42,529 nt of DNA from Erysipelatoclostridium sp. An173. Its GTDB lineage: Bacteria > Bacillota_I > Bacilli_A > Erysipelotrichales > Coprobacillaceae. The position numbers were made by a program, and so were the translations under genes. Below, one piece after another: positions 9,420 through 19,942 of this stretch. The stretch is from contig NZ_NFKR01000024.1 in assembly GCF_002160495.1 (NCBI RefSeq), positions 1 to 42,529 of the forward strand, read 5' to 3'. The notes under the pieces were generated by a model. That model was given only the letters and a program-made list of their open reading frames with translations. It searched no databases and was not told where the DNA came from. The number at the start of each line of letters is the position of its first letter. Position 1 is the stretch's first letter.

Positions 9420-9546
9420 CGGCTTTTGTCATAGCCCACAGGAGTTCCACCTCTGCATAGTTCTTATGTAGCCGTACCCATTGCGTGCGACGTTCTGAAC
9501 GCTCAAGCTGTGGCTGTACGGGAGTATCATTATCTGACAGCACAGG
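9373..9546 (-). pseudogene. C-terminal fragment of an unidentified element gene
   Basis: Minus-strand frame open for 57 codons and ending TGA at 9373. It encodes a protein-like tail containing DNDTPVQPQLERSERR, then QWVRLHKNYAEVELLW and AVELLRKILQKGG. Codon use is good and the end overlaps the ribosome site of the TnpW-like gene, as in an operon. Upstream the frame is closed by a stop at 9547 with no start codon or ribosome site, so the 5' part is lost or frameshifted. I do not recognise the family with certainty; a mobilisation or accessory protein of Tn916/Tn1549-like elements is a guess. Confidence 0.45.
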
Positions 9547-15892: not shown

Positions 15893-15988
15893 AAAGGGGG
15901 AGTCTACTTTTAAGTAGCAATCGCATGTACGGTCATTGATCGGAATTAACGCCTGTGGACTAGAAATGAGGATGAAGCAGGAAAGATT
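15893..15988 (+). mobile_element. Orphan IS200/IS605 (TnpB) right-end / omega-RNA-like segment
   Basis: The segment GGGGGAGTCTAC... ends GCCTGTGGAC ... GATGAAGCAGGAAAG. The CCTGTGGA...GAAGCAGGAA arrangement, in which CCTG pairs with CAGG, is what I know from the right ends and overlapping guide RNAs of TnpB-only (IS1341-type) transposons in Firmicutes. A perfect CTACTT/AAGTAG hairpin is at 15904-15917. There is no tnpB frame upstream, so this is a leftover or a non-autonomous end. It sits directly before the folT-like ATG and could instead be an unknown leader RNA. The identification is from memory of the motif, not from a search. Confidence 0.5.
15911..15922. repeat. 12-bp direct repeat, copy 1 (TAAGTAGCAATC)
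   Basis: Identical to 15994-16005; the repeats enclose most of the TnpB-type right-end sequence. Confidence 0.8.
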
Positions 15989-15993
15989 GTAAA

Positions 15994-16005
15994 TAAGTAG
16001 CAATC
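15994..16005. repeat. 12-bp direct repeat, copy 2 (TAAGTAGCAATC)
   Basis: Identical to 15911-15922 and ending 4 bases before the folT-like ATG, so it occupies the place where the ribosome binding site should be. Confidence 0.8.
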
Positions 16006-16009
16006 AATT

Positions 16010-16810
16010 ATGATTCAAATTATTTGCGGAATTATTTTAGTATTGATCGGAGTTTTGGTTTTCTGGAAATATCCGATTAAAAGTGATGCTAAATCACTAT
16101 CGCTGGCAGCCTTGTTCATTATTTTAGCTGCTATTTTAAATCGGTTATCAATTATGATACCGTTATTTGGCTTTGAAAGCTTAAATATTTCTATCGAAGT
16201 TATTCCTATGATGTTAGCCGGGATATTATTAGCTCCGGGATATTGTTATATTATTGGAATAGCTATTGATTTAGTAGGGTTGCTTGTAAACCCGACCGGT
16301 TTTCCATTTTTAGGATTTACTTTAAATGCAGTATTACAATGTTTAATACCTTCCTTAATTGTAACAACGATCAAAGAAAATCGTTTAAATTATTTAGAAA
16401 AAGTTATCAAGATTTTATTGATTGTTTTAGTTGTTGGTGCTTGTAGCTATGTATTTAGTTTAAATCAAGTTACTATTTCTAATAATGTAGTTACAATTAG
16501 TACTAGCTTTAAGATAATTATGAGTATTATCTGCGTAATAATGATTGCAATATTGTTTATTGTAATGTATTTTTATAAAAAGAAATTAAATGAAGAAGAG
16601 TATTATTTATTTAATATCTGGTTGATTTCAGTTGTAATTGTTGAAATGGCTGTTTCTTTTGTTTTAACGCCATACTGGTTAGAGGCAATGTATGGAATAC
16701 CGTTTACTTTGTCGTTATTTATTCGAGTAATTAAAGAATGTATAATGATACCAGTGGATATCATTTTAGGATATAGTGTTTTAAGAATATTGAAGAAGCT
16801 TAAAGTGTAA
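16010..16810 (+). CDS. ECF transporter substrate-binding (S) component, FolT-like, 266 aa
   Basis: Integral membrane S-component that captures a vitamin and works with the shared EcfA/EcfA'/EcfT module encoded elsewhere. The typical S-component opening SLSLAALFIILAAILNRL starts at about residue 27, followed by a loop and the helix-end motif GYCYIIGIAIDLVGLLVNP that fits the folate-family S-components. About six to seven hydrophobic segments are visible. An additional N-terminal membrane segment (residues 3-19) is unusual. No ribosome site exists in the 20 bases before the ATG, the nearest AGGAAAG being about 30 bases away. So either initiation is weak, or the true start is an internal codon. 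Folate as substrate is the best guess. Confidence 0.72.
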   Translation: MIQIICGIILVLIGVLVFWKYPIKSDAKSLSLAALFIILAAILNRLSIMIPLFGFESLNISIEVIPMMLAGILLAPGYCYIIGIAIDLVGLLVNPTGFPFLGFTLNAVLQCLIPSLIVTTIKENRLNYLEKVIKILLIVLVVGACSYVFSLNQVTISNNVVTISTSFKIIMSIICVIMIAILFIVMYFYKKKLNEEEYYLFNIWLISVVIVEMAVSFVLTPYWLEAMYGIPFTLSLFIRVIKECIMIPVDIILGYSVLRILKKLKV

Positions 16811-16831
16811 TCGATTGATTACACTTTTTTT
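16802..16831 (+). terminator. Terminator after the folT-like gene
   Basis: Eleven-base perfect stem AAAGTGTAATC (16802-16812) / GATTACACTTT (16817-16827), 4-base loop and T run. It overlaps the stop codon. Confidence 0.92.
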
Positions 16832-16880
16832 GTTTATTTTTTTTATTAGTGGAAAAAATATTTATTGTGAGGTGATAAAA

Positions 16881-17324
16881 ATGGAAACATCTAAGTATAA
16901 TCAAATTGCAGAAAGTTTAAAACCGAAAAAAACGGTTTTAAAACATTGTATATATGCTTTTGTTTATGGTGGTGCTATTGGGGCAATCGGACAATTTTTC
17001 TTAGAATTATATATGAATATTTTTGAAATTGATCAACAGGAAGCAACACCAATGATGATCATAACTATTGTTTTAATTGCTGCAATATTAACTGGACTAG
17101 GAATTTATGATCGTCTAGGTAAAAAAGCTGGAGCGGGAACTTTTATTCCGATTACTGGTTTTGCTAATAGTATGACTTCTAGTGCTTTAGAAGCTAAAAG
17201 TGAGGGATTAGTAACTGGAATTGGTGCTAATATGTTTAAACTTGGCGGTACGGTAATAACTTTTGGAATTGTGGCTTCATTTGTATTAGGAGGAATCCGA
17301 TATGTCATCAGTCTTATCTGGTAG
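16881..17324 (+). CDS. spoVAC: Stage V sporulation protein AC, 147 aa
   Basis: Membrane protein of the SpoVA channel that moves dipicolinic acid into the forespore and out at germination; SpoVAC is the mechanosensitive part. Recognised from YNQIAESLKPKKTVLKHCIYAFVYGGAIGAIGQF (read in two parts, residues 6-39) and the GTFIPITGFANSMTSSALE region with EGLVTGIGANMFKLGG. Length is normal. ATG 16881 follows GAGGTGA; the longer frame back to 16815 runs into the previous terminator and is rejected. It is the first gene of spoVAC-AD-AE-AF and overlaps spoVAD by 23 bases. Expression would need the forespore sigma factor SigG; I did not find a clear SigG promoter. Confidence 0.95.
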   Translation: METSKYNQIAESLKPKKTVLKHCIYAFVYGGAIGAIGQFFLELYMNIFEIDQQEATPMMIITIVLIAAILTGLGIYDRLGKKAGAGTFIPITGFANSMTSSALEAKSEGLVTGIGANMFKLGGTVITFGIVASFVLGGIRYVISLIW

Positions 17325-18306
17325 TTCGATGGGATTAAATAATGTATATATTCGCTCAATTGGATCAACATGTGGTATTGATGAATTTAATGGTCCTTTA
17401 GGTGATTATTTTGATCGTCATTATCCTGACTTTCATTGTGGTTATCCTTCTTATGAACAGGCTGAAATTGCGATGTTGGAAGAAGCAATAAAATTTGCTT
17501 TAAAAAAAGGAAAATTAAAAAAAGAAGATATTAATTTATATATGGGTGGCGACTTAAATAATCAATTAACAGCAACTAATTATATGGCTAAAAAAATCAA
17601 ACGACCATTAATGGCAATGTATGGAGCCTGTGCAACAATGGGACTAGTAATAGATAATGCTGCAATGTTAATCGAAAATCATTGTATTCATAACGCTAAT
17701 TGTTTTGTGTGTAGTCATAACGCTACTGCTGAAAGACAATTTCGTTACCCGCTTGAATATGGTGTGCAGCGCAAAGAAACGATGACAACAACGGCTACTG
17801 GTGCTGTTAGTGTAATTTTAGATAACAATCCTAGCAATGTAAAAGTAGAATCAATAACAATAGGTAGAGTCGTTGATTTAAATCAAAGTGATCCCAATGA
17901 TATGGGACGAGCCATGGCTCCAGCTGCTTTTGATACTTTAGTTACTCATTTAAAAGATCTAAAAAGATCGGCTTCATATTATGATTTAATTGTAACTGGT
18001 GATTTATCAGCCTATGGTAAAAAAATTATGAAAGAATTGATGAAACAAAGTAATATTGAATATCGTCGTTATGATGATTGTGGCTGTTTATTATATGATT
18101 CTAATCAGGATGTTAATCAAGGCGGTAGTGGACCTTCTTGTAGTGCCTTAGTAACATTTGGTTATTTATTTGCTAAGATGTTAGAAGGGAAATATAAGCG
18201 AATTTTAGTAATTACAACGGGAGCTTTATTATCACCAGTAATGACTAATCAAAAACAAAGTATTCCTTGTATTGGCCATGCTTTTTCATTGGAGGTAGTA
18301 CAATGA
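17302..18306 (+). CDS. spoVAD: Stage V sporulation protein AD, 334 aa
   Basis: Soluble thiolase-fold protein that binds dipicolinic acid for the SpoVA channel. Seen: VYIRSIGSTCGIDEFNGPLG, the Cys-containing LMAMYGACATMGL segment at the position of the thiolase nucleophile, the FRYPLEYGVQR motif, TTTATGAVSVIL, and GGSGPSCSALVTFGY near the end. Length matches the family. It starts inside spoVAC with GGAGG in the preceding coding sequence, and its stop overlaps the spoVAE start as ATGA, showing a tightly coupled operon. Confidence 0.96.
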   Translation: MSSVLSGSSMGLNNVYIRSIGSTCGIDEFNGPLGDYFDRHYPDFHCGYPSYEQAEIAMLEEAIKFALKKGKLKKEDINLYMGGDLNNQLTATNYMAKKIKRPLMAMYGACATMGLVIDNAAMLIENHCIHNANCFVCSHNATAERQFRYPLEYGVQRKETMTTTATGAVSVILDNNPSNVKVESITIGRVVDLNQSDPNDMGRAMAPAAFDTLVTHLKDLKRSASYYDLIVTGDLSAYGKKIMKELMKQSNIEYRRYDDCGCLLYDSNQDVNQGGSGPSCSALVTFGYLFAKMLEGKYKRILVITTGALLSPVMTNQKQSIPCIGHAFSLEVVQ

Positions 18307-18656
18307 TGAATTATGTTTTAGCGTTTTTATTTTGTGGTAGTGTTTGTGTAATTGCGCAGTTAATTTATGAATACACTAAGTTAACACCTGGACATATTAC
18401 AAGTTTGTTTGTGGTAATTGGTGCATTTTTAGATTTGTTTCATATTTATGATCGTTTGGTTGAAATATTTCATGCTGGGGCATTATTGCCGATTACCAGC
18501 TTTGGTCATTCTTTGATGCATGGAGCTTTGGCGGCTACTAAAGATTATGGCTTTTTTGGTTTAGCGATGGGTATTTTTGATTTAACGGCTGCGGGTATTA
18601 GTAGTGCGATTTTATTTGCTTTCTTAGTTGCGATAGTTACTAAACCTAAATCATGA
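18303..18656 (+). CDS. spoVAE: Stage V sporulation protein AE (SpoVAEb-type), 117 aa
   Basis: Small membrane subunit of the SpoVA channel, with three to four hydrophobic helices. The family's LTPGHITSLFVVIGAFLDLF and GAGALLPITSFGHSLMHGA-like sequence (here HAGALLPITSFGHSLM) are clear; it resembles SpoVAC in fold. ATG 18303 follows GGAGGT; the longer frame from 18267 lies within spoVAD and has no ribosome site. Start and stop both overlap neighbours by four bases (ATGA), so it is coupled to spoVAD and to spoVAF. Confidence 0.94.
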   Translation: MMNYVLAFLFCGSVCVIAQLIYEYTKLTPGHITSLFVVIGAFLDLFHIYDRLVEIFHAGALLPITSFGHSLMHGALAATKDYGFFGLAMGIFDLTAAGISSAILFAFLVAIVTKPKS

Positions 18657-19942
18657 AAAATCCATCATTTGATATTAATACCCGTATCTTAGACTATAAT
18701 AATGAAAAAGTATCAATTAGTTTCCTTTCTAGTCTATGTGGCGATGATATGGTGGCCTATATTGTTGAAGGAATCACAAATAATCGCGGGGAAACATTAA
18801 AAGATTGTATCAATAATGGAGCGATAACTGAAGAACCGGATCATCAAAAAGCATTATATGCCATGCTTTCAGGATGTGCTTTGGTTGCTTATCGTGATAA
18901 AGAATATGTTGTTGATACAAGACGCTATCCCAATCGTTCTGTAGAAGAACCAGAAACAGAAAAAAGTGTGCGTGGTTCTAAGGATGGTTTTAATGAATCA
19001 ATTTTAACTTGTGCAGGATTAATTAGAAGAAGAATTAAAACTATGGATTTGATCTTACAGAAATATACGATTGGAAAGAATAATCCGCTTGATATTTGTG
19101 TTTGTTATTTAGATAGTGTTGTAGATAAACAGATGTTGGATACAGTAACTAGACGAGTTAAAGAAATAAAAAATGATGATTTAGTTATGACTGACCGAGC
19201 GGTTGAAGAAATCATATTAAATCAAAGTTATAATCCGTTTCCATTAGTTAGATATAGTGAACGACCTGATGTTGTTGCGACCCATATATTAGATGGTAAA
19301 ATTGCGATAATTTGTGATACTTCATCTTCGGTAATGATGTTACCAACAACTATTTTTGAAATTTTAGAGCATGTTGAAGAACATCGGCAAACACCAATTA
19401 TTGGTACATTTATTCGTTTAATTCGTTGTAGCGCTGTATTACTTTCAATTTATCTGGTGCCATTGTGGCTTTTAATAAGTAGCCATGGAAATTTAGATAT
19501 ATATTTTTTAGGTCAGGTTTTATTGATGGAATTATCAATTGAATTATTAAGAATTGCTACGATTCATACGCCAACTCCTTTATCTAACGCTATGGGGATG
19601 ATTGCAGCAGTATTATTAGGACAGTTTGCCATTGATTTAGGTTTTTTTAGTGAAGAAATTTTATTATTTTGTGCTATTGGTGATGTTGGTGGTTTTGCAA
19701 CACCGAATTATGAATTATCACTTACTAATAAGTATATTAAAATATTTTTGATTATTTTTGTTGGTTTATTGGGATGGGCTGGTTTTATTGTTTTTCATAT
19801 TATTTTAATTGGTTATTTAATTTCTATTAAACCACTAGGAGTTTCTTATTTGTATCCATTAATACCGTTTGATGGTAAGGCATTATGGAATTTTATTATT
19901 CGAAAACCGAAAACGAAAAAAGGTAGTAAAACTGTAACATAG
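18653..19942 (+). CDS. spoVAF: GerA-family spore germination protein SpoVAF, 429 aa
   Basis: Homologue of the GerAA germinant receptor subunit that is encoded at the end of spoVA operons. Soluble N-terminal half (1-250) with FNESILTCAGLIRRRIKT and ICDTSSSVMMLPTTIFEILE, then five to six membrane helices from about 260, including the family loop TPLSNAMGMIAAVLLGQFAI. It is somewhat shorter than the Bacillus protein (about 490 aa), mainly at the C-terminus, with no sign of a frameshift. Start ATG overlaps the spoVAE stop. Related proteins modulate germination and may form an ion channel with a partner; no such partner gene lies next to it here. Confidence 0.9.
   Translation: MKNPSFDINTRILDYNNEKVSISFLSSLCGDDMVAYIVEGITNNRGETLKDCINNGAITEEPDHQKALYAMLSGCALVAYRDKEYVVDTRRYPNRSVEEPETEKSVRGSKDGFNESILTCAGLIRRRIKTMDLILQKYTIGKNNPLDICVCYLDSVVDKQMLDTVTRRVKEIKNDDLVMTDRAVEEIILNQSYNPFPLVRYSERPDVVATHILDGKIAIICDTSSSVMMLPTTIFEILEHVEEHRQTPIIGTFIRLIRCSAVLLSIYLVPLWLLISSHGNLDIYFLGQVLLMELSIELLRIATIHTPTPLSNAMGMIAAVLLGQFAIDLGFFSEEILLFCAIGDVGGFATPNYELSLTNKYIKIFLIIFVGLLGWAGFIVFHIILIGYLISIKPLGVSYLYPLIPFDGKALWNFIIRKPKTKKGSKTVT

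Follow-up and report, generated by a model that had tools for sequence, protein, structure and literature searches.

The closest described relatives of the RNA reported here belong to transposons. RAGATH-18 (Rfam RF03064) is the scaffold of the IS607 TnpB guide RNA, and its carriers occur in seven phyla (Ren et al. 2024, PMC11061315). TnpB-derived proteins have already been exapted for gene control, as in the TldR systems, which are nuclease-dead TnpB homologues with guide RNAs (PMC13418256). Two further systems are close in position or in geometry. The THF (THF-I) riboswitch RF01831 stands before folT in sister genera, and in the T4 genes 25 and 38 RNA structure is proven to bring a distant Shine-Dalgarno sequence to working distance (PMC3014915). 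In the open-access literature, no report was found in which the guide RNA by itself had been taken over for the control of an mRNA.

The leader of folT in Erysipelatoclostridium sp. An173 can be compared with each of these. Like RAGATH-18 and the TnpB omega-RNAs of IS607- and IS605-type elements, it has a GUACGG hairpin, GGAAUUAACGCC, a stem of the form CCUGUGGA...GAAGCAGGAA and a kink-turn-like loop. Unlike them, it comes without tnpB, terminal hairpin or guide, lies within an mRNA leader, scores below the gathering threshold, has a P3b helix of only 2 bp in Coprobacillaceae and carries new flanking helices, P1 and P0. With TldR it would share the exaptation of a TnpB-family component for the control of a host gene. 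However, TldR has kept its protein as well as the guide and targets DNA in trans, whereas the leader keeps the RNA core only and would act in cis on the mRNA. The leader holds the same place before folT that the THF riboswitch holds in sister genera, presumably with the same task, but it gives no match to the RF01831 model and accompanies another type of FolT. As in the split ribosome-binding sites of the T4 genes, a structure between the Shine-Dalgarno sequence and the AUG is predicted to shorten an extended spacing (PMC3014915). The spacing in the leaders is 100-139 nt, and longer with three tandem cores, in contrast to 22-27 nt in T4. What is inserted in the leaders is moreover a structured domain that has been conserved and is possibly switchable, whereas the T4 structures are not known to switch. 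We consider it probable, with some reserve, that the folT leader is a cis-regulatory RNA with its origin in the 3' core of a TnpB guide RNA, that it no longer needs TnpB and that it works as a translational switch with P0 as a bridge.

The folT leader and its neighbourhood

The window is the whole stretch of DNA that was analysed, 42,529 nt of contig NZ_NFKR01000024.1. Its folT gene (16010-16810, + strand) encodes a long-form folate-family ECF S component of 266 aa that scores 196.6 bits against TIGR04518 (cut-off 60), in agreement with the folate-type ECF-S gene named in a first-pass annotation, and it alone exceeds this cut-off in a profile search of the whole genome. An intrinsic-terminator-like hairpin (16802-16827, + strand) lies 3' of folT. 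It is noted that a GerXA-type spore germination protein is encoded 3' of folT, within 16815-19942, so that the folT unit adjoins a sporulation-type cluster; the genes after folT in this interval are presumably similar to SpoVAC/AD/AE. At the gathering threshold, Rfam finds only a pemK RNA motif (RF02913, 55.1 bits, 9436-9533, - strand) in the whole window, and nothing at the folT leader. A promoter scan for the leader gave no well-placed match.

The whole leader element spans approximately 15896-16009, and all its parts lie on the + strand. From 5' to 3' these are GGGGGAG (15896-15902), CUACUU, the first AAGUAGCAAUC, the core (15924-15983), GAUUGU, the second AAGUAGCAAUC and the folT ATG. The Shine-Dalgarno-like GGGGGAG is kept in leaders, being GGAGGAG or AAAGGAG in relatives. 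CUACUU (15904-15909) is the putative 5' strand of helix P0 and can pair either at long range with 15995-16000 or in a local hairpin with 15912-15917. The 5' strand of P1, GCAAUC (15917-15922), has its partner GAUUGU at 15985-15990, and the latter has an alternative partner at 16000-16005. Within the core, which scores 90.6 bits against a covariance model described below (R1) and was aligned in our alignments A3 and A5, are the P2 hairpin (CGGUC/GAUCG, 15930-15942) and the CCTGTGGA...GAAGCAGGAA block at 15952-15983. This block contains P3, formed by CCUGU (15952-15956) and GCAGG (15977-15981), and a kink-turn-like internal loop at 15957-15976, in which GGA, a 3-nt loop and GAA are combined with P3b (CU/AG).

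The 12-base direct repeat seen in the first-pass annotation to frame the segment is exact, TAAGTAGCAATC being present at 15911-15922 and 15994-16005 on either side of the core. Copy 1 comprises the 3' strand of the local hairpin and the 5' strand of P1; copy 2 comprises the P0 3' strand AAGUAG and the CAAUC of an alternative 3' hairpin. Rather than a target-site duplication, the repeat is more plausibly a means of offering the same strands a choice of two partners to pair with, GUAG and CAAUC. The annotation had also placed the second copy where the ribosome site should be. There is indeed no local ribosome site beside the folT ATG; what it overlooked is the Shine-Dalgarno-like GGGGGAG that lies 107 nt upstream, at the 5' flank of the element, and likewise the extent of the leader, its conservation across the order and its tandem repetition in one genus.

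Conservation and secondary structure of the leader

The element is present in 9/9 genomes of the genus at 97-100% identity (blastn). Some blastn match was found in 34 of the 43 Coprobacillaceae genomes, the weakest (G040) being a chance match in a coding sequence. The leader stands before long-form folT in 33 of these 43 genomes and in 5 genomes of the sister family, at one locus per genome. In the Coprobacillaceae genomes inspected, every element is followed by folT, and the leaders of the sister family stand 3' of folC. The genome of the window is Thomasclavelia-like, and the named relatives nearest to it in which the element occurs are Thomasclavelia and further Coprobacillaceae/Erysipelotrichaceae; among named genomes, a pattern scan located it in Thomasclavelia, Massilimicrobiota, Faecalibacillus, Stoquefichus, Longibaculum and Eggerthia catenaformis. 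Phages and plasmids gave no blastn match to the element, and 30 folT-family loci from leaderless genomes contain neither the element nor a diverged leader.

Both the order and the class were searched with two covariance models: R1, built from 32 distinct cores of folT leaders only, and R2, to which the sister-family members were added. In 315 genomes of the order, no folT leader scores below 57 bits and no other match above 51 bits. Among these other matches, those that were inspected are for the most part TnpB right ends, and a few could not be assigned.

The core is strongly supported by covariation. Across both families, 96.9% of the alignment cells are paired and 8 of the 12 pairs change on both sides; such changes occur in 27 cells, a number that 0/500 shuffles reach (shuffle mean 6.4), and slid controls collapse. 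In P3, 4/5 pairs have changed on both sides with zero broken cells (100% of cells paired). Covariation in P2 includes GGU/AUC to GCG/CGC-type changes, and P3b shows a C-G to G-C change. The P1 helix, which lies outside the core, differs in sequence by genus (GCAAUC/GAUUGU, AGCAAA/UUUGCU, UUCGAAUGU/ACAUUUGAA, UUGAAAAGA/UUUUUUCAA and others). Its summed helix score is 254.5, and the highest among 2000 shuffles is 188.5; in the four sister-family members taken alone, P1 is not significant. It should be mentioned that folding the window leader as a single sequence gives no unusual stability (minimum free energy, z -0.08).

The loop between P3 and P3b consists of GGA, three to four bases and GAA. 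The key pairs of the RAGATH-18 kink-turn are A:G at 3b:3n and G:U at 4b:4n (PMC8191799), and the internal loop of the leader fits both pairs position by position. The unpaired bases GGAAUUAACGCC, GUGGA and GAAG are invariant across about 20 genera. The leader thus has one of the features expected of a riboswitch, a conserved, structured, aptamer-like domain with covariation in the 5' leader. The aligned leaders demonstrate conservation of the predicted P1, P2, P3 and kink-turn-like loop, linkage to long-form folT in two families, and placement between the putative Shine-Dalgarno sequence and the AUG. An upstream open reading frame starting from the RUGUAC motif was considered and rejected, because variation in the length of the P2 loop leaves neither its frame nor its peptide conserved.

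In Faecalibacillus-type genomes, three tandem cores precede folT (L046-L050, L059, L062, L063, L065 and L067). The two linkers that flank the central core can pair with each other (CAUAUG/CAUAUG or CAUAUG/CAUGUG), which gives this core a P1 of its own, and the outer two appear to share one.

A proposed bridge between the Shine-Dalgarno sequence and the start codon

In four leaderless genomes of the sister family (L160, L167, L172 and L173), folC runs directly into the ATG of long-form folT, with AAAGGAG or AAGGAG 6-7 nt before it in L172 and L173. In the leader-bearing members, the same folC end (AAAGGAGAG in L120 and L127) leads into the RNA, after which comes the ATG. Since the leaderless folC-folT junctions do not have the RNA that the carriers have before the ATG, the element interrupts a ribosome-binding site. 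In a tree of long FolT proteins, the leaderless ones fall outside the leader-bearing ones, weakly and on long branches. A single insertion of the leader is compatible with these comparisons, not proven by them.

RNAalifold, applied to 22 full leaders, chose a long-range P0 in which CUAC after the Shine-Dalgarno sequence pairs with GUAG before the AUG, in addition to P2 and P3. Across this predicted helix, the distance between the Shine-Dalgarno sequence and the AUG is reduced to 7-14 nt in 15/16 leaders, and to 18 nt in L118. The energies with and without P0, computed by soft constraints, place the best folds -3.1 to +2.3 kcal/mol apart in 16 leaders. In single sequences, P0 is no longer than expected by chance (sum 71, shuffled mean 64.6, maximum 82), so the case for it comes entirely from its conservation and the RNAalifold consensus. 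P0 is absent from L124 and L051.

A bridge helix is the most likely mechanism in the structural model that we propose. In one state, P0, with CUAC paired to the GUAG beside the AUG, and P1 would close the folded core as a bridge, which would leave about 7-14 nt between the Shine-Dalgarno sequence and the AUG, so that folT could be translated. In the other state, P0 would open into two local hairpins and leave the Shine-Dalgarno sequence out of reach. In Coprobacillaceae, P1 is predicted to compete with a 3' hairpin in which GUAG would be sequestered; for this reason, a more stable core should shift the balance towards P0 and translation. The anatomy of the leader therefore predicts that the folded core with P1 and P0 is the ON form.

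It could be argued that the bridge needs no small-molecule ligand, and that the core is either a structural bridge that restored the Shine-Dalgarno/AUG spacing after an ancestral insertion and was retained for this purpose, or a site for a kink-turn-binding protein. The insertion does sit between the Shine-Dalgarno sequence and the AUG, the kink-turn-like loop has been retained, and the split ribosome-binding sites of T4 function without a ligand (PMC3014915). However, a stem would suffice for a bridge; neither the invariant unpaired GGAAUUAACGCC, GUGGA and GAAG across some 20 genera nor the three tandem cores would be needed. We regard this explanation as unlikely, though it is the strongest of the alternatives.

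Exclusion of the THF riboswitch

Within the Coprobacillaceae, the leader and the THF riboswitch exclude each other: 33 genomes have only the leader, 8 only the THF riboswitch and 2 neither of them, and in no genome do the two occur together. Of the 30 folT-family loci from leaderless genomes, 20 were scanned first, and the THF riboswitch RF01831 was found at 17 of these; the other 10, with the four leaderless long-folT loci among them, have no Rfam family. The RF01831 covariance model has no match in the window or in the leader genomes.

The leader occupies the place of the THF riboswitch in sister genera, and by analogy the core most likely senses a metabolite of the folate pathway. An ON switch on an importer would suit a signal of deficiency better than the vitamin itself. 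As a tentative extension of the switch proposed above, the leader could represent a new folate-pathway riboswitch class, with an aptamer derived from the TnpB guide-RNA scaffold, inserted between the Shine-Dalgarno sequence and the start codon, regulating by the bridge, and standing in for the THF riboswitch in one gut-bacterial family. If this is true, one origin of a riboswitch-like class is a transposon RNA, the leaderless junctions and the THF riboswitch alternative in sister genera make up a natural experiment, and the control of folate uptake becomes testable in the common gut bacteria Thomasclavelia, Faecalibacillus, Massilimicrobiota and Eggerthia.

The two RNAs accompany different types of FolT, the leader going with the long form (~265-290 aa) and the THF riboswitch with the short form (~170-190 aa), and the exclusion may for this reason follow the gene, through cassette replacement, and not the ligand. 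Regulation by the leader could then be unrelated to folate, the exclusion being a by-product of a long-FolT cassette that was inherited with its own leader and replaced short FolT with its THF riboswitch. The four sister-family genomes with long FolT and no leader at all would agree with such a history. On the other hand, all leaders examined are linked to folT, those of the sister family stand between folC and folT, and Thomasclavelia has retained the leader before folT even though folC no longer adjoins. A role outside folate metabolism is therefore doubtful, and a folate-pathway signal remains the reading that we prefer.

Relationship to TnpB guide RNAs

The first-pass annotation had recognized before folT the form of a TnpB-type right end and its guide RNA, and a covariance search, which it had proposed as a check, bears this out with a difference. 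RAGATH-18 scores the window block at 25.8 bits, below its gathering threshold of 44.9; six related loci are RAGATH-18 above gathering. In the reverse direction, R1, though trained on folT leaders only, detects the TnpB right ends L052, L055, L056 and L057 with 52-54 bits and E values of 3e-11 to 6e-11 in 137 kb. L052, L055 and L057 are segments after tnpB in viral contigs, and L056 is similar. TnpB right ends are detected by R2 as well. The stretch common to leaders and tnpB right ends is GUACGGU...AUCGGAAUUAACGCCUGUGGA...GAUGAAGCAGGAA. Sequence comparison thus establishes that the leader is homologous to the guide-RNA core and conserved in cis. The annotation had held that conservation upstream of folT across distant species, with no match to any IS200/IS605 end, would speak against its reading; conservation before folT does extend across two families, which counts against it, and the match to TnpB right ends counts in its favour.

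The transposon RNA is the likelier ancestor, since the leader is confined to one order within the genomes searched and RAGATH-18 carriers span seven phyla. The leader also looks derived because the class-level matches outside the order, where inspected, have a TnpB motif upstream, bar a few without a readable motif.

The leader is nevertheless independent of TnpB. The lack of tnpB reported by the annotation extends from the segment to the genome, where a profile search found neither PF07282 nor PF01385, so the full tnpB element that it had suggested seeking elsewhere in the genome is not there. Most carriers are without TnpB, PF07282 being absent in 23/33 Coprobacillaceae carriers. That the RNA still acts in trans with TnpB or a TnpB-like protein, as the guide RNA of a TldR-like repressor, might be suggested by the conserved guide-RNA core sequence and by the presence of some TnpB in the other 10/33 carriers. 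We consider it very improbable, given the carriers without PF07282, the window genome among them, and the bases after GAAGCAGGAA, the guide position: these are the P1 3' strand instead of a terminal palindrome with a guide, and they covary with the 5' flank and contain no conserved guide. The annotation had also raised a relic of a non-autonomous element; as a neutral remnant of the IS200/IS605 type, this reading has next to nothing in its favour beyond the true homology to right ends, in view of the single locus per genome, the conservation across the order (including all nine genomes of the genus and 33/43 of the family), the compensatory changes and the absence of a terminal palindrome. The annotation was right to raise, as its other option, a captured guide-type RNA acting on folT: the leader is conserved, covarying and TnpB-independent, as would be expected of the cis-regulatory RNA that we propose.

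Other guide-RNA-type sequences were seen in the two families. Four cores in the sister family (L121, L123, L125 and L136), with R1 scores of 27-45 bits, adjoin neither folT nor an evident tnpB, and may be relics or further exaptations. In the same genus as the window, an orphan TnpB-type right end of the form CGCCTGGGGA...GATGAAACAGGAA...GGTAGTTCAA lies between genes without an evident tnpB (L135, G007:C56:57666-57736), which suggests past activity of such elements in this genus.
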